From Levyella massiliensis (GTDB taxonomy: Bacteria; Bacillota; Clostridia; Tissierellales; Peptoniphilaceae), in the NCBI RefSeq assembly GCF_000308275.2, contig NZ_HG529490.1:939329-1003328 (forward strand): 64,000 nucleotides of DNA. The letters are read 5' to 3'. Below, one piece after another: positions 54,056 through 62,112 of the stretch. The position numbers were made by a program, and so were the translations under genes. Numbering within the stretch: the stretch's first letter is position 1; each line of letters opens with the position of its first letter. The notes below the pieces were generated by a model. It was given only the letters and a program-made list of their open reading frames with translations. It was not told where the DNA came from and did no database searches.

Positions 54056-54078
54056 AGAAGCCCGCCGATGGCGGGCAA
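54056..54078. terminator. Terminator between convergent genes
   Basis: GCCCGCC-GAT-GGCGGGC is a perfect 7-bp stem. TTCTTTATTT follows on the minus strand, ending the five-gene operon; on plus it ends the tyrS unit. Confidence 0.8.
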
Positions 54079-54114: not shown

Positions 54115-55857
54115 TTAATGCCGCATCGCTTTCGGACCGAGGCGCACGACCAGCCAGTAGGCGACGGGAATGAAGATCAAGAAGAAGGCGATGGAGACCA
54201 AGGCGAAGGGCATCGGGGTCATAATGTTGGAAAAGCGTGTGGCGCCGAAGAAGCAGAAGCCGTAGACTAGACCGTTTAACAGCGTTGGGGCGAAGCTATG
54301 GCTTCCTTCTTCGTCATAGGGTTGAAAGACATAGTAGATGAAGAGCGGAAAGATAGTGAAGAAAGCGCCATAGGTCAGTACCAGAAGAAGCGTGGCCATG
54401 AGATGCCATGGCGACATGTGCACACGCAAGCCGTTTACGGCAAAAAACAGAATCACCAGCAGCGTGGAACGCTGCATGAGCTTCCAAAGGCTGGCCATAC
54501 GGCACTTAAACATCGTAAGCAAGGCCTCCTGTTCTTTATAAAAGCTGTAGTGAAGCAGGCTCTGATCGCAATTGATATACATTGCTTTGGTGAGGTTTTC
54601 ATTGCTGCATAAGAGATACATCATAAGCGGAATGATATAAATCAAATCCGTTATCACTTTTGCATCGTTTAAAAGGATAAAAGCAAAGGTAGCAATAAAG
54701 CCGAGAAGTGCACCGATGATGGTGCGCGTAAGAATAGGGCGTTCCAACAGGCGCGCATGACGCTTGAAAAAGAGATCGTTCAAATAGGCGTAGCCCTTCT
54801 TATCGGATTGATGATGGAGCACCTCCTCGGACAAATAAGCGTCCGGCACATTCTGCCCACCCGATGCGGAAGCATCGTCGCCGCGCGCAGGATCCTCCTT
54901 CTCCGCAGAGGATTTTTTGCGAAAGAGGGATGCAAAGATACCGGCATTCGTCTGCTGCAAATCGGAATCGTTGAGTTTCAAATTGTCCTTCGAAACCTCT
55001 GACAGACTTTCGATCGAATAGTACATTTCCGTACTGACCTGGATCAGACGCGAATATTCCTTTTGCTGCAGGAAAAAGCGCATGGATTGCCAAGCGGGCA
55101 CAAGGAGCGCCAGGCTCAATAGCCAGCCGAAAAGACCAATATTCATATGAAAATACGCAAATATCGCTATGATGGCAATATTGACGAATAGGCGCAGAAA
55201 TGCGCTTGCCCACTGGCTTGCGGTATTATTTTCTTTTTCTTTTAATTTCTTCTGATAATTGTGGCGCGCAAAGGCCTGGTCTAAGAGATAGACGGCAAGG
55301 CTCCAGCCGATGACTTCAAGAACGTTCCACGCCGGCCACACCATAGTAAATAGCACGCTCCAGACAATGCAGCGCGAAACAAAATGTTGGGCCGGACGAA
55401 ACAGGGCCATTACCATCACGCTGCGATGAATGTCCAAATGAAAATAGCGCAACCACTCGTAAAGCGTATTGCCATTATCGACCACTTGTGAACTGCCCCA
55501 GGTGAAAAACAGATAAACAATCAGAAAAATCCCTGTGCGTATGCAGAGGCGAAAAGGATCCATCCCCGCAAGCGGCGCAAAAATAGCGATATTATCCTGC
55601 AAAATGGTGAGCATTAAATAGGAGAGCACCACGCAAATGCAGGACGATAGGAGCACCTTGACCAGATCCATGACGAGAATCACGAGCGGCGTCACCAGAC
55701 GGCTCAGCTTCTTAAACGGACGTAAAGCATAGGAGTCGCCTAATGCACGGCCCAGGATCGGGATGCGACGCACCATATACACCACGCCGTTCACGAAGGA
55801 ATACCAATTGATGAGGGAAATCAGTTTGAAATCCTGCCAAGTTCTTTTCAAATTCAT
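54115..55857 (-). CDS. ABC transporter permease (large, single-chain)
   Basis: A 580-residue polytopic protein with about 12 membrane segments in two bundles separated by a charged, disordered linker (about residues 295-365). It has no ATPase domain, and its start overlaps the ABC ATPase gene by four bases (ATGA), so it is the membrane partner of that ATPase. The fold suggests an ABC-2 type exporter, but I cannot name the substrate. Last gene of the five-gene operon with the defence-like helicase genes. Confidence 0.72.
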   Translation of the reverse strand: MNLKRTWQDFKLISLINWYSFVNGVVYMVRRIPILGRALGDSYALRPFKKLSRLVTPLVILVMDLVKVLLSSCICVVLSYLMLTILQDNIAIFAPLAGMDPFRLCIRTGIFLIVYLFFTWGSSQVVDNGNTLYEWLRYFHLDIHRSVMVMALFRPAQHFVSRCIVWSVLFTMVWPAWNVLEVIGWSLAVYLLDQAFARHNYQKKLKEKENNTASQWASAFLRLFVNIAIIAIFAYFHMNIGLFGWLLSLALLVPAWQSMRFFLQQKEYSRLIQVSTEMYYSIESLSEVSKDNLKLNDSDLQQTNAGIFASLFRKKSSAEKEDPARGDDASASGGQNVPDAYLSEEVLHHQSDKKGYAYLNDLFFKRHARLLERPILTRTIIGALLGFIATFAFILLNDAKVITDLIYIIPLMMYLLCSNENLTKAMYINCDQSLLHYSFYKEQEALLTMFKCRMASLWKLMQRSTLLVILFFAVNGLRVHMSPWHLMATLLLVLTYGAFFTIFPLFIYYVFQPYDEEGSHSFAPTLLNGLVYGFCFFGATRFSNIMTPMPFALVSIAFFLIFIPVAYWLVVRLGPKAMRH

Positions 55858-56558
55858 TGGGCATCCTCTTCCGTTAACAGACGAATGACCTGCTCTTCGA
55901 TATCGGGATTCGACAGGTCCTCGTCCACTGAGAGCAATTTACCATTTTTGAGTAATACCACGCTGTCACACAGATCGCGCGCCAGTTGCAGAATATGCGT
56001 CGAAAAAAGAATGATGTGTTCGCCGCGAATGGAGCGAATGAGCTCCTTCATCTCGTGCTGAACCACCACATCCAATGATGTCAGCGGCTCATCCATCAGA
56101 ATCACGGGCGGACGCAAAATCATGAACATCAGCATCTGAATTTTATTTTTCATACCGGTCGAGTAGCTTTGCAAGAGACGGTCGCGATCTTCCACAGCAA
56201 AATCAATTTGGTCAAAATATTGATCCAAGTTCACATCCTTATGAATTTTCTCGCGATTCGCTTCGACAAAGAACGCCAGCATTTCGCGCCCGGTTAAAAA
56301 ATTCGGCAGTGTCGGCTCAGAAACCATAAAAAAGACATCCTCCGCTTCCAGCGGACGCTTATGGCCATCCTGTTCGATCCATACCGAACCGGCATCCTTG
56401 CTGCGCTCCCCCGCAATCAGCGTAAACAGGGTTGTCTTACCGGCACCATTTCGACCGAGTAAAGCATAGACCGTCCCCTGTTCAAAGGTGCCGGTCACAT
56501 CTTGCAGCACCTCTTTTTTAGCAAATGATTTTTTCAGATTTTCGAGTATGAGTTGCAT
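55854..56558 (-). CDS. ABC transporter ATP-binding protein
   Basis: A 234-residue ABC ATPase. Walker A is GRNGAGKTTLF (near 37-47), the signature is atypical YSTGMKNK (usual LSGGQ), and Walker B with its glutamate is VILMDEP (near 155). D-loop TSLDVV and the switch histidine (FSTHILQ) are kept. Start ATG at 56558 follows GGAGG; the longer frame from 56594 is unsupported. It overlaps the end of the helicase gene by 25 bases and the permease by four, so the operon is tightly coupled. Confidence 0.9.
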   Translation of the reverse strand: MQLILENLKKSFAKKEVLQDVTGTFEQGTVYALLGRNGAGKTTLFTLIAGERSKDAGSVWIEQDGHKRPLEAEDVFFMVSEPTLPNFLTGREMLAFFVEANREKIHKDVNLDQYFDQIDFAVEDRDRLLQSYSTGMKNKIQMLMFMILRPPVILMDEPLTSLDVVVQHEMKELIRSIRGEHIILFSTHILQLARDLCDSVVLLKNGKLLSVDEDLSNPDIEEQVIRLLTEEDAQ

Positions 56559-58735
56559 ATTTCCTCCATCACTTCTTTTAGCGACGTTAAACACAGATTT
56601 TTTAAGATATAGCGAATTTTGTATTCTTTTGACAGCAGAATAGCGTATTTTGCAGAGCCAAGCAAACGCGTAAGCATGGCTGCGTCTTCCTCCAAGTAAG
56701 CGCGAATGCGAGAGATAACGTCATCGCCCTCCTCGGTATACAGATAGCGCAACCGCAAGATAGCCGCACGCAAGTGCTCGCCAAAAAGTCTGCCGCGTCG
56801 GCTGTCCCAGAAAATGCGCGGGGACGGGCTCTCCGTAAGCGCACGCAGCAATAGAAAAAGCGTACGCTCCGCGCGACTGCCGAGAAACAGCGTGAGTTCA
56901 GCCTCATCCCCTTCCTTTGTCCATTGGACGTGGCGCTTGGGCGCATAAACCGTGCGCAGGCGCTTGAAAGCATCTCGCGCTACGGCATCTTTTTCAACGA
57001 GTGCAGGCGGCGCGTAGAGCACCTCCGGCATCAAACGGCGCAAGGGTGCAGACACATCATCGTAGGATCCTGCAAAAAGTGGCGCCTTCCCCTTTTTTGC
57101 ACTCTTGACGAAAATTTTCTGTGCTTTTTCATCAACAGAATCCACTGACCACACGCGTGCGGACAAGAGAATATGCGCGCCCGGCACCACCTCCGGGGTT
57201 AAGGGCAGGGTACCGATGCGCTCCTTGCCAAACAGCACGGTAAAATCGCGCTCCGTTTGAAACATCGCATAAAAATCATGGCGCGTTGCAATCCGTTCGC
57301 CGGCAAGGCCCAAAAACATCTCCGTGCCCTCTTCCGACATCTCCAGGTACTCCTGTTCCAAAAGATAGTGCAGAATTTTCTCTTGGTCTTGACGAGTCAG
57401 AAACGAGAACACCGGCCAATCAGAAAGGGCGTAATAGTCCGACAACGGAAGGCCGCTTGTTTCCAATGCCAGCGCCAACACCTGGTGCGCAAAAACATCA
57501 TAGGGTGCCGCTAACGGCTCCAAGCGTTCCAATTGCCCTGTTTTTACCATTTCCAACGCCGTAACGGCCTGCCAAAACGCATCCTCGCGCGTCGCAAAAA
57601 GATGCAACCGCGGCGGTTCCGCTATTTTTTTGCCCGTTTCCGGATCCGTCATCTCCCCACGCCCGCTGCGCCCCAATCGCTGTGCAAGCGATGTGGCCGA
57701 AAAAGGAGCATCTACCTGGCACACCGCATCCACCGTTCCAATATCAATACCCAGTTCAAGCGTCGAGGTGGCACAGAGGGCAAAGCGTGAAAAGCCGGAT
57801 TTTACCCACTCCTCCGCTTCAAGGCGCAGGCCTTTCTCCATGGAAGAATGATGGGCCATCACGCGAATAAAGAGATTCTCGTGCTTCACGCGCTCCTGCA
57901 ACGCGTGGGCAATTTCTTCCACGCGCCGCCGCGAATTGGGGAAAATCAGCAAGTTTTCCTTTTTCAGCACAGCAAACAGCGCATCGTAGAGCGCTGCCGT
58001 ATCGGAAGGATCCTCCGGGCGGTCTCCTTGCTGCGCGGGTAAGCATAAATGCAGGTTTGTGATCGGAATGCGCTTCGCATGATCCACGACAATGCGCGTG
58101 TCGCGGCCGTGCGGGAAAAAGTAGCGCAGGTCGTCATAATTTTCTTCTACCACCGTTGCGCTCATACCCACATAGCGCGGATGTGCTTCGCTTCGCTTTT
58201 CCAATCGCTGCAACAAGGAGCGCAATTGCACGCCGCGTTGTCCCGATAGAAAACTATGGCATTCATCCACCAGAACCCACGAAAGGCAAGAAAATAAGCG
58301 AGAAACGCGTTCCGGATGCGTGTCCAGCATGGCTTCGAGGGATTCCGGCGTGATAAGGACAATACCTTCCGGATGCGCTACAAGCTTCCGCTTGGCGGAG
58401 GTTTTGGCTTCGCCATGCCATGCCGTCACCGGGATATCCAGCGCACGACAGAGCCCCCAAAGTCGCTGAAACTGGTCATTAATTAAGGCCACCAGAGGAG
58501 AAATCATCAGAATTTGCACCCCGTTATGCCAGTCTGACGAAGGCACAGAAGAAATGGCGGGTAAAAATGCCGCTTCCGTTTTTCCTGCTGCCGTTGGCGC
58601 GGACAGAATAAAGTTATCGTCTGTTTCCGTCGCGACACGGATGGCGGCATGCTGGATCGGGCGCAGAGCTTCCCATCCCTGCTCATAAATATATTTTCGT
58701 ATGGGTGCGATAAGACGCATAAACGCATCAGCCAT
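56534..58735 (-). CDS. Lhr-like DEAD/DEAH box helicase
   Basis: A 733-residue superfamily II helicase. Motifs: SAPTAAGKTEAAF (Walker A, near 45), LVDECHSFLSGQRGVQL (motif II, near 155), GMSATVVEE (motif III), and the C-terminal core with SLAQRLGRSGRGE (motif VI). The sequence around motif II (HSFLSGQRGVQLR) is Lhr-like. Helicases of this group occur in BREX types 2/5/6 as BrxHI and with DUF2791 ATPases. Start ATG at 58735 follows AAGGAAG. The ATPase gene lies 72 bases upstream; the ABC ATPase gene starts 25 bases before this gene's end. Confidence 0.88.
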   Translation of the reverse strand: MADAFMRLIAPIRKYIYEQGWEALRPIQHAAIRVATETDDNFILSAPTAAGKTEAAFLPAISSVPSSDWHNGVQILMISPLVALINDQFQRLWGLCRALDIPVTAWHGEAKTSAKRKLVAHPEGIVLITPESLEAMLDTHPERVSRLFSCLSWVLVDECHSFLSGQRGVQLRSLLQRLEKRSEAHPRYVGMSATVVEENYDDLRYFFPHGRDTRIVVDHAKRIPITNLHLCLPAQQGDRPEDPSDTAALYDALFAVLKKENLLIFPNSRRRVEEIAHALQERVKHENLFIRVMAHHSSMEKGLRLEAEEWVKSGFSRFALCATSTLELGIDIGTVDAVCQVDAPFSATSLAQRLGRSGRGEMTDPETGKKIAEPPRLHLFATREDAFWQAVTALEMVKTGQLERLEPLAAPYDVFAHQVLALALETSGLPLSDYYALSDWPVFSFLTRQDQEKILHYLLEQEYLEMSEEGTEMFLGLAGERIATRHDFYAMFQTERDFTVLFGKERIGTLPLTPEVVPGAHILLSARVWSVDSVDEKAQKIFVKSAKKGKAPLFAGSYDDVSAPLRRLMPEVLYAPPALVEKDAVARDAFKRLRTVYAPKRHVQWTKEGDEAELTLFLGSRAERTLFLLLRALTESPSPRIFWDSRRGRLFGEHLRAAILRLRYLYTEEGDDVISRIRAYLEEDAAMLTRLLGSAKYAILLSKEYKIRYILKNLCLTSLKEVMEEICNSYSKI

Positions 58736-58807
58736 GCTTGCTTCCTTCCGACAATACGCTTTGCCTGTTCGCGGTGCCGACGGATTTCTCCAACTCAACG
58801 CTCCGCA

Positions 58808-60103
58808 TTACAGAATGGATATTTCGGCGTCGTCCAAATTATCCGGATCCTTTTCCACGCGTCCGAGCGTACCGAAACGCCTTGTTAGCAGTTCTTCGGT
58901 CGAAACCTCCGGATTCTGACGCGCTAACTGCAAGAGTTGCAGAAAGTCCTTAATCACCGCTCGCGGCGTTAGAAATTCCGCGGCGCCCGGACGATTGAGC
59001 TGTGCCTGCATGTACTGCGCAATCTGTTCTTCCGAATACGCAGCTTTTCCTAAGCCGTAATGGGTGGTAAACACCGTTTGGATTTTTTCCAGCAACGTAT
59101 AGATTTCTTCCGGCGTCAACGGTTTTAAGAGCTGCACAGTCGCCGTCGTATCCACCAAATCGCTTAAGCCTTCGCGAGCAATGCCAAAACGCCCCTTGAG
59201 GGCGCCGTAACTGGCCATGCCACGCCGTTCGTCAAAGATGGTTTTGCGTGTGGCCGCCAAATTGATCCACAGCCCCGGCGCGCGGCCGCCCTTCGTCTCA
59301 TTGTATAAATTCAAAATGCGCTCGTAGTTTTGTTCACGGGTCATGCTGCGCGGTAATTTATACAGATTCACGCATTCGTCAAAATTCACGACAAGCCCGC
59401 TGTAACCCAGGATACGGAAAAATTCACTCCAGTTGAACAGGACATCAGTCCAGTTGTCATCCGTAATGATTTCCCCTACGCCAATCGATCGTTTGGCTTC
59501 CGTTTTGGTCGGCATATGGCCGTTCATCCAGCGCAGCGCCTGCGCTTTTTGCAAGGCATCGCCCTTGGCCGCTGCCTCCATATAGGCGGCCACCACCGCT
59601 GCCAATTCAAAGCGCAAGCCGCCGCTCGAAAAGCGATTGAAACCGTCATACACAAAGGCTGCCGGATCCTTTTTCTTTTGCACGACATTGTCATACCAAC
59701 GATCCAGCATCGCTCCCAAGGCCTCCCCCGGTGCTGCAGCACGCGTTTGAAGACGCTTCATGATTTCCTGATAGAGGGCAACTCCTTTACCATCCGAAGC
59801 GTGGAAACGACGTGTGGGCGTCAGGTCCACGGTGGCGGCAGCCATATTTATCTGCAGCGCTAGCTGTTCAATGGTGTGAAGCATAAAGCTCTTGCCGGAC
59901 CCGAAGTCACCGACCCAAACGCGAAAATCGGAGTCACCTTCCGCCACGCGTGCCAGCGTAGCGGCAACTTCCTCGACCTCCGCTTGGCGACCGACAAGCA
60001 GGTGCTGAATGCCCATTGTTGGCACAACACCAGCTTCCAAAGCCTGTAAAATTTGTTGTGCTTCGCGACGACGCAAAGGACGTTTGTTCTCATTTTCCTG
60101 CAT
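58808..60103 (-). CDS. BrxC/BrxD-type (DUF2791) ATP-binding protein
   Basis: A 431-residue P-loop ATPase of the DUF2791 type. GIQHLLVGRQAEVEEV (near 31-46) is the family start, Walker A is GDFGSGKS (65-72), Walker B SGLVVNFDECVNLY (235-248), and LAATRKTIFDERRG follows. This family is called BrxD in some BREX systems and also occurs with TerB-like proteins and helicases outside BREX. It most likely acts on DNA with the helicase. The start at 60103 follows AGAGGG by six bases. It starts 14 bases inside the end of the upstream 653-residue gene. No BREX methylase or PglZ is nearby. Confidence 0.85.
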   Translation of the reverse strand: MQENENKRPLRRREAQQILQALEAGVVPTMGIQHLLVGRQAEVEEVAATLARVAEGDSDFRVWVGDFGSGKSFMLHTIEQLALQINMAAATVDLTPTRRFHASDGKGVALYQEIMKRLQTRAAAPGEALGAMLDRWYDNVVQKKKDPAAFVYDGFNRFSSGGLRFELAAVVAAYMEAAAKGDALQKAQALRWMNGHMPTKTEAKRSIGVGEIITDDNWTDVLFNWSEFFRILGYSGLVVNFDECVNLYKLPRSMTREQNYERILNLYNETKGGRAPGLWINLAATRKTIFDERRGMASYGALKGRFGIAREGLSDLVDTTATVQLLKPLTPEEIYTLLEKIQTVFTTHYGLGKAAYSEEQIAQYMQAQLNRPGAAEFLTPRAVIKDFLQLLQLARQNPEVSTEELLTRRFGTLGRVEKDPDNLDDAEISIL

Positions 60104-62051
60104 GCTCATCCCTCTTTTCTTGCCACCAAGCGGCATCCGCCGGGTCCATCCACAATCGTTTCTCTTCTTCAAATAGGAGTTGCGCTCCGATTTCATCAAA
60201 ATAGGCATCGTTGACCGCAGCAATAAGCCCTGCAGCACTTCTGCCCTCCTCTTGCGCGATTTGCTCCACCTCTGCCATCGTAAGGCCTTCCGAAGCAGCT
60301 GCCACGCGATCGACCAATCGCTCTTCCGGCGATGCATCGGCTAAGGCAGCCTCTTCCACGATGCTTTCCGACGCGGTGGGTTTCTCTTTCTCCGTCGTGT
60401 TCTCTTTGTCGTTCATTTCTTCGTCTATGGCCGTCGACGCATTCTCTGCGTGAGCTACAATAGCAGAGCCGTTTTCTACTAGGCGGTCCACTAAGGCCAC
60501 CGTATCCGCCAACGCTCGTCTCGAATGGCGAATCGCCTGCCGATCCAGATTTAGCGTCCGCACCTTGGGCACGGACCACGCTTTCACTTGGTCTTCTAGT
60601 GCCTCGTACCACATTCTGTCTGCCGTCTGTAACGGGGTCTTCATCCAGGCGGCAAGCTCTTGTTTATGGGTGGCATCCACAAGCCGTTCCACTTTTTTAG
60701 GCATTTGCGGCTGTGCAGCACGCTTCCATCGCCGTCGTTCCTGCAAAAGAATGCGTATCTTTTGCTGCAAAGGGCTTTCTGTTTTTTTGACTTCCGCATG
60801 TTGTAAGAATATACACGCCTCATCCTCATCCATCGCATTCAAAACAGAAGCACGGCCGCTGCTTTTTGAAAGCTGATGCAGCCACTTGACGCGCAAGCGT
60901 TTGGCTAAGCGGGAAGCTTTCGGCAGTGCCTCGATATCATCGATGGTTATCGGAGAAATAGGATGCGTTTCCAATACACGGATCACTTTTTCCCGTAAAG
61001 CAAGCGGCAGCCGTCTCTCCATTTCTTCCCATGCGGAGGACGTGGAGAGCTTCGGCATCTCGGCTACTTCATTTCGAACGCGCTCTTCCGCTAGGCGCAA
61101 AAAGGCTGGCAAAATAGCATAATGAAAGGGATTTCGCGGTTTTTCGCCACGCGCCGCCTGCGCCAGATAACGGCGCATATTACGGTTTTTCCAGGGAATT
61201 TCGGCATCCTCGGCATGCTTCTCCACAATGTCCAGCATGGCATGATACAGTTCAAGAATGCGCTGTACCAGGGACGGGATTTCCCAGAGGCGCGTCGGAT
61301 GAGAGATCGGCTCGCACAGTCGGGCAATCTGTTTAGGGGTATAGCTGATTTTTTCCCGCAATACGCTTTGCGGATCCCACCAGAGGATCTTCCTCCCTTT
61401 TTCGTCATACCCGAAATATTGCAGCGTTTCGGGGGTTGCCGGTGGAAGTTTTTCAACAGCCTGTCCCAAAAATGTGGAAAGGGAACGAACCCCATCGCTA
61501 CCCAGCGTAAAGACAAAATAGGGGTCGGTCACAGTGGTCCCCTTGCGCTCGGGATCATAGTGACGTACCACTGCCTGATAGGTCACGCGATAGATTTGCT
61601 CTAAAAAATAGCTAGGCAGTCGATCACGGGTTGCGACATTGCCGGTCTCTTCCGTTAATGCCGCATCGCGACGCAATCGCAGAGCATAGGCTTCATCGGC
61701 CGTCTTTTCAAACAGGGCGTCCGTTTCTGTGATGATTTGTGTTTCGTGCTCGCGCGCCCGAAAACGCCAGGTAGACTGTTTAAGCTGTTCCTTCCAATAT
61801 CCCTCACGATGCGGATGCGCAAATTGCAAAAAGGAGCGCGGCGTGTCTCGTTGTACCGAAGCAGGAGATTCTCTCTTGTTTTCCGGCGCAGCAATTTCTT
61901 GTGGTGGAAGGCGCAGCGCCCCGAAGCGCGCGACATCCGTGATTTTGGGATCCTCTTGGGCGCCGCTATCTTTCATGCGACGTTCCGCTTTTTCTTTGAG
62001 CTTGGGATCTTGCAATTGCGATAGCACCCAGGACTTAAAATCTTGCGACAT
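60090..62051 (-). CDS. Large protein of unclear fold, possible TerB-C-like C-terminus
   Basis: A 653-residue soluble protein, basic and helix-rich, that I cannot assign with confidence. It has no membrane segment or signal peptide. Residues about 90-260 are charged and contain WWDPQS; 400-520 are basic and could bind nucleic acid. An acidic disordered region (about 540-580) precedes a C-terminal domain with GLIAAVNDAYFDEIGAQLL (about 608-626), which resembles the TerB-C segment that accompanies DUF2791 ATPases in other bacteria. ATG at 62051 follows AAGGAGG; the longer frame to 62171 is unsupported. First gene of the five-gene operon. Confidence 0.75.
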   Translation of the reverse strand: MSQDFKSWVLSQLQDPKLKEKAERRMKDSGAQEDPKITDVARFGALRLPPQEIAAPENKRESPASVQRDTPRSFLQFAHPHREGYWKEQLKQSTWRFRAREHETQIITETDALFEKTADEAYALRLRRDAALTEETGNVATRDRLPSYFLEQIYRVTYQAVVRHYDPERKGTTVTDPYFVFTLGSDGVRSLSTFLGQAVEKLPPATPETLQYFGYDEKGRKILWWDPQSVLREKISYTPKQIARLCEPISHPTRLWEIPSLVQRILELYHAMLDIVEKHAEDAEIPWKNRNMRRYLAQAARGEKPRNPFHYAILPAFLRLAEERVRNEVAEMPKLSTSSAWEEMERRLPLALREKVIRVLETHPISPITIDDIEALPKASRLAKRLRVKWLHQLSKSSGRASVLNAMDEDEACIFLQHAEVKKTESPLQQKIRILLQERRRWKRAAQPQMPKKVERLVDATHKQELAAWMKTPLQTADRMWYEALEDQVKAWSVPKVRTLNLDRQAIRHSRRALADTVALVDRLVENGSAIVAHAENASTAIDEEMNDKENTTEKEKPTASESIVEEAALADASPEERLVDRVAAASEGLTMAEVEQIAQEEGRSAAGLIAAVNDAYFDEIGAQLLFEEEKRLWMDPADAAWWQEKRDEHAGK

Positions 62052-62082: not shown

Positions 62083-62112
62083 ATTGTACCGCATTCCTCA
62101 TTGCGTTGTGAA
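62083..62112 (-). promoter_or_regulatory. Promoter of the helicase-ABC operon
   Basis: On the minus strand TTCACA (62107-62112) and TACAAT (62083-62088) are 18 bases apart, 32 bases before the 653-residue gene. Confidence 0.65.

Follow-up and report, generated by a model that had tools for sequence, protein, structure and literature searches.

Background

Shango is an anti-phage system of three genes, which encode a TerB-like protein, an ATPase and a DEAD/DEAH helicase (PMC10250203). In the available part of that report Shango was tested in Pseudomonas aeruginosa PA14, with E. coli also mentioned, and it reduced the plating of many, though not all, of the phages tried by 10- to 100-fold in P. 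aeruginosa. The accessible parts of other papers enter TerB under Shango (PMC10952713), report SngABC in E. coli genomic islands (PMC11096173) and group SngC together with BrxHI, DruE and DpdJ in a single clade (PMC12278908). BrxD may load or activate BrxHI according to a paper whose main text, as available, does not use the word Shango (PMC12839542), and the available text of another paper makes no mention of it (PMC12458937). Within the available parts of the open-licence literature on Shango we found no mechanism for the system. We also found no report of a Shango-ABC operon in the available portion of the open-licence PMC literature, where the combination of Shango with an ABC transporter was judged by the titles listed. 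By title, the matches listed for TerB-N/TerB-C, the TM2 domain and Murdochiella contained nothing on a five-gene operon.

A five-gene locus in Levyella massiliensis

We analysed a 64,000-nucleotide stretch of the L. massiliensis genome (the window). An ORF check placed five genes on its minus strand, at 54115-62051, with these features:

62083..62112, minus strand: promoter-like site upstream of sngA (TTCACA-18-TACAAT, 10/12, consensus scan only)
60090..62051, minus strand: sngA, 653 aa; SngA, the TerB-type protein of Shango (PADLOC, Pfam, profile comparison)
58808..60103, minus strand: sngB; SngB, the BrxC/BrxD-type AAA+ ATPase of Shango (PADLOC, Pfam, Walker motifs)
56534..58735, minus strand: sngC, 733 aa; SngC, the SF2 (BrxHI/Lhr-like) helicase of Shango (PADLOC, Pfam, motifs)
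55854..56558, minus strand: ABC transporter ATPase, 234 aa (ABC_tran, motifs)
54115..55857, minus strand: ABC permease of no named family, 580 aa (hydropathy, ABC ATPase neighbour)
54060..54076, minus strand: terminator-like hairpin after the permease gene (GC-rich, 7 GC pairs and a T-rich tail, consensus scan only)

The ORF coordinates confirmed the original prediction of five minus-strand genes with overlaps of 14 bases (sngA/sngB), 25 bases (sngC/ABC ATPase) and 4 bases (ABC ATPase/permease); a gap of 72 bases lies between sngB and sngC. The sngB start is the ATG at 60103, with a second in-frame ATG at 60109, and a GGAGGA lies shortly 5' of the ABC ATPase ATG. The gene order and tight junctions are not a sequencing accident, because they are repeated in three other genomes at 38-77% protein identity. 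We infer that the five genes probably form one transcription unit under one promoter, chiefly because of the gene overlaps. The promoter scan adds little, with 6 promoter-like sites observed against 6.7 +/- 2.7 in shuffles, which is no excess; terminator-like sites numbered 19 against 11.7 +/- 3.9.

The ORFs flanking the operon look by sequence like housekeeping and membrane-protein genes. From their protein sequences we take them to be tyrS and a membrane-protein gene on one side, pointing toward the operon, and ddl-murF on the other (sngA) side, pointing away from it. Several Peptoniphilaceae carry Shango on the chromosome next to housekeeping genes, with a SngA lineage that has no recognisable TerB_N. 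In one MAG and two genomes of Kallipyga (L062-L064) Shango lies approximately 0.5-1.3 kb before tyrS; tyrS is also close in the window, on the permease side, and was not seen in the regions examined of the sister genomes described below.

The front three genes encode a predicted Shango system

PADLOC models, judged by E value and not by the PADLOC per-model cut-offs, matched three consecutive genes as SngA (E 1.1e-12), SngB (1.3e-128) and SngC (4.1e-171). The order of TerB-type protein, ATPase and helicase is the Shango order given in the available part of the published description, with 3/3 models matched. SngB also matched Pfam BrxC_BrxD (E 8.9e-111), and SngC matched DEAD and Helicase_C, with a sub-threshold match to WH_Lhr. 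Walker A/B are intact in SngB, as are Walker A, DECH, SAT and QRxGRxGR in SngC. The ATPase-helicase dyad is homologous to BrxD-BrxHI of BREX type 2, but the corresponding PADLOC models scored worse (BrxD 6.6e-39 for the sngB product, BrxHI 4e-111 for the sngC product), and a profile search of the whole genome for PglZ (PF08665) gave 0 matches, where a control search with the same profile gave matches in 2/14 genomes.

Since SngB and SngC score far better on Shango models and the genome has no PglZ, the locus is assigned to Shango and not to BREX. On sequence grounds, the three leading genes constitute a chromosomal copy of the already described Shango system, neither BREX nor an unassigned module. 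The original prediction had proposed a DUF2791/BrxD-type ATPase and an Lhr-like helicase, in a BREX- or Ter-like defence module that is not a known BREX type, and the results above support a BrxD/TerB/helicase defence module that is not BREX. It had missed Shango and left the module unassigned, which did not hold once profile HMMs named SngA, SngB and SngC.

The locus resembles Shango of PA14 and E. coli in having a TerB-type protein, a BrxC/D-type ATPase and a DEAD/DEAH helicase in the same order in one operon. It differs in that its SngA lacks a recognisable TerB_N and in having an ABC ATPase and a permease attached at the sngC 3' end; Shango on Paenibacillus and Pantoea plasmids has the same trio without the ABC pair. 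From the protein families, SngB, an ORC/Cdc6-like AAA+ ATPase, would load SngC, the SF2 helicase, onto invading DNA or activate it there, with TerB-type SngA as a possible sensor, adaptor or regulator, and phage replication would then be impaired.

In a PDB check of SngB relatives, a single SngB sequence gave two matches (E 0.0027 and 0.33), which we judged to be chance; the SngB profile gave no match to PDB sequences at E 0.1.

The five-gene block is present or absent as a unit within Murdochiella

The best named relatives of the locus are Murdochiella, with 73% identity in SngB, and the genus of the window genome is treated here as Murdochiella. We compared the Murdochiella Shango genomes, namely the window genome and its sisters G001, G003 and G004, with a fifth genome, G002. 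The sisters carry the same five genes in the same order as the window. Their ABC ATG follows directly after the sngC stop, compared with the 25-base overlap in the window; in 4/4 Murdochiella Shango genomes the ABC start thus meets or overlaps the stop of sngC, which upholds the original claim that the pair is tightly joined to the helicase gene. The sisters retain ddl-murF on the sngA flank, with an extra 740-codon ORF between in G001, and the genes flanking the permease are not those of the window. In G002 (87% complete) ddl-murF lies on an unbroken contig, and the site has no Shango and no such ABC pair but does hold a different kind of ABC ATPase; elsewhere this genome carries a distantly related member of the ABC-pair family. 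Within the genus, in these five genomes, the five-gene block is present or absent as a unit.

The ABC pair belongs to a family that is common without Shango

The ABC ATPase matched Pfam ABC_tran (7.3e-22) and has intact Walker A/B, YSTGM signature and H-loop motifs. A simple hydropathy scan gave about 8 hydrophobic segments for the permease. Among 16 members of its family no Pfam family was over the cut-off (scan at E 0.01), the permease gave no match to the PDB at E 1, and a structure prediction from three sequences had a mean pLDDT of 43 and was unusable. The family adjoins an ABC ATPase in 16/16 relatives' loci examined. Stand-alone pairs of the same two genes in the same order (permease about 530-590 aa) occur in Peptoniphilaceae and other Clostridia, with ABC ATPases 50-65% and permeases 23-32% identical to the window pair. 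They are not beside Shango, unlike the four Murdochiella pairs, which form one supported clade within the pair family in trees of the ATPase and the permease (98/96, 100/100).

Among the 101 nearest relatives, SngB was found in 8 and the permease in 25. A profile search of 130 genomes of the family found SngB in 26, the permease family in at least 59 and both in at least 25. The two are side by side in 4/25 of these, all Murdochiella; in the other 21/25 they lie on different contigs or at least 400 kb apart (coordinates by eye). In a draw of 291 genomes of the class, SngB-like proteins were found in 35 (some weak or partial), the permease in at least 30 and both in at least 6, one of these six having a weak SngB match; the genes are adjacent only in G000 and G001. 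The permease counts are lower bounds, since they come from the best first-look candidates, up to 4 per genome for the class and up to 11 for the family.

Named genomes gave the same picture. From 155 stretches matched, 133 of which encoded a relative, 80 were kept. The permease family was present in 2 of the 80, both Murdochiella and one probably the same genome as G004, by a BLAST search with four permease queries that may miss very divergent members. A script found full Shango, with three sng genes on one strand, at 38 of the 80 loci; the other 42 were left out, mostly for an unrecognised SngA or a contig end. Two of the 38 were too short, and the ABC pair was present at 2/36 assessable loci (both Murdochiella) and absent from 34/36. 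It is absent from the visible Shango flanks in Kallipyga, Anaerococcus, Tissierella, Trichococcus, Peptostreptococcus and others. The pair stands without adjoining Shango at 13 relatives' loci (L047-L059), and three of those genomes have Shango elsewhere. Outside one genus, homologues therefore occur without the ABC pair in nearly all genomes of this many-genome co-occurrence test. This does not support the original proposal that nucleic-acid sensing is tied to membrane export as one system, since the pair adjoins Shango in Murdochiella only.

Across the family the permease was present in 25/26 Shango genomes compared with 34/104 others (Fisher p 1.4e-9). We rejected this association as a lineage effect, because all but one of the Anaerococcus listed have the permease, with or without Shango (18/19 Shango and 12/12 Shango-free genomes among those listed).

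Relationship of the exporter to Shango

The operon is real but mostly ordinary Shango. We consider it very probable that an ordinary Shango system is joined here by a genus-specific two-gene exporter that rides on the Shango transcript and is not a step of Shango. A separate, widespread ABC exporter would have been joined to the end of sngC in the ancestor of the Shango-bearing Murdochiella. The ABC pair would probably be made from the same message as Shango by translational coupling, which alone does not show shared function, and the exporter would have a separate function, such as exporting a small molecule or peptide or conferring resistance to one.

Overlapping with this explanation is the possible, though rather unlikely, case of a passenger that is nevertheless useful beside Shango, with which it would be raised together through the shared transcript, for instance in bacteriocin or lantibiotic resistance. 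In NCBIfam the ABC ATPase scored highest on a lantibiotic-protection ATPase, but its 110.7 bits fall well short of the cut-off of 309.75. In Anaerococcus, 11/19 of the Shango genomes listed have a different module directly behind sngC and 8 have none. This module (L045 11255-16310; L142-L151) consists of a small protein, an ABC ATPase, an FtsX permease, a response regulator and a kinase, with families named on one locus. An FtsX permease with a response regulator and a kinase is the layout of peptide-resistance modules. However, the Anaerococcus permease is of a different family, and the window permease has no named family from which a substrate could be assigned.

The Anaerococcus module may itself be associated with Shango. 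In the family, 11/12 matches to its FtsX permease (E 1e-20) adjoin Shango, and the position behind sngC is kept in permeases down to 26% identical to the query. Among the Anaerococcus genomes listed the module is present in 11/19 with Shango and 1/12 without (p 0.008, uncorrected for descent). We treat this association as a lead, as the test was post hoc, run after the association had been noticed. Flanking genes shared between the loci suggest vertical inheritance.

We regard it as very unlikely that all five genes form one functional system, in which the exporter would serve a Shango variant as its membrane component, for instance by exporting a signal or protecting the membrane when SngABC senses foreign DNA. 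The contact between sngC stop and ABC start conserved in four genomes, and the presence or absence of the block as a unit within the genus, would fit such a system. The block has been kept in four Murdochiella despite diverged sngA and permease genes and a differing permease-side flank, which would also be expected if the five cooperate. The unrelated ABC module behind sngC in Anaerococcus points in the same direction, as does the TM2 domain of SngA in other lineages: an N-terminal TM2 is over the Pfam cut-off in SngA of Peptostreptococcus russellii, Tissierella pigra and Vagococcus silagei, and below it in one Aerococcaceae SngA (the four TM2-type SngA are L078 6720-9008, L079 6900-9008, L096 6927-9008 and L082 457-2298). 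Against a five-gene system are the absence of the pair from nearly all assessable named Shango loci, the frequency of the permease family without Shango, and the lack of a Shango-permease association inside Anaerococcus. In addition, ABC_tran has 77 matches in the 1.71 Mb window genome, including some twin domains or fragments, and with that number some ABC neighbours are expected and this one is unremarkable.

TM2 suggests that Shango may be membrane-anchored in some Firmicutes, and together with the Anaerococcus module it makes a membrane-linked Shango conceivable. It is similarly improbable, in our estimate, that some members of the Shango family act at the membrane, through TM2-anchored SngA and unrelated ABC modules behind sngC in at least two genera, with the Murdochiella transporter driven or guarded by DNA sensing. 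Such a link, if true, would offer a way into the mode of action of Shango.

SngA is a fast-changing component

SngA changes fast, with about 38% identity in the sister genomes compared with 73% for SngB. The window SngA matched Pfam TerB_C below its cut-off (E 6.8e-4, 20.3 bits against 26.3) and did not match TerB_N. We aligned it with SngA from 22 of 40 named loci that had a SngA match; at E 0.01, TerB_C was found in 21/23 of the SngA scanned and TerB_N in 0/23. Two canonical SngA, from a Paenibacillus and a Pantoea plasmid, have both TerB_N and TerB_C over the Pfam cut-off. Profile-profile comparison of the window lineage with canonical SngA gave one match, of 200 C-terminal columns at a probability of 96%.

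The missing TerB_N, the sub-threshold TerB_C and the divergence of SngA are what would favour a new BREX-like or Ter-type system separate from Shango, the window SngA being just 14-38% identical to the 22 aligned relatives, but that reading is already largely refuted and hardly credible, as 23/23 SngA scanned match the SngA model of PADLOC with E values of 1e-3 or lower and the SngB, SngC and PglZ results given above speak for Shango.

A structural model of SngA from 23 sequences (mean pLDDT 77) was mainly helical, with weak indications of a winged-helix-like end. Foldseek comparison of this fold with the PDB gave 88 matches at E 10 and 0 at E 0.001, and the SngA profile had no match to PDB sequences at E 0.1. 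A second fold comparison, of residues ~563-653, gave Z scores up to 8, mostly to winged-helix proteins, a resemblance that may be just a common arrangement. The sister Murdochiella SngA end ~100 residues early and so lack the winged-helix-like end, which is kept in the window copy (60090-62051). The short SngA (L060 7437-9005, L061 7437-9005, L040 11059-12579 and L042 5206-6774) look like one clean shortening, because sngB follows at once.

A tblastn search of SngA against plasmids gave no match at 1e-5. Among 72,556 plasmid records, 685 contained SngB relatives, of which 449 come from Klebsiella and 541 are predicted to be conjugative; ATPases of the SngB kind, whether of Shango or BREX, are common on transmissible plasmids. 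In an archaeal MAG, Candidatus Hodarchaeum mangrovi (L134 10305-14740), two tandem SngC-like helicase genes lie behind a SngB relative.
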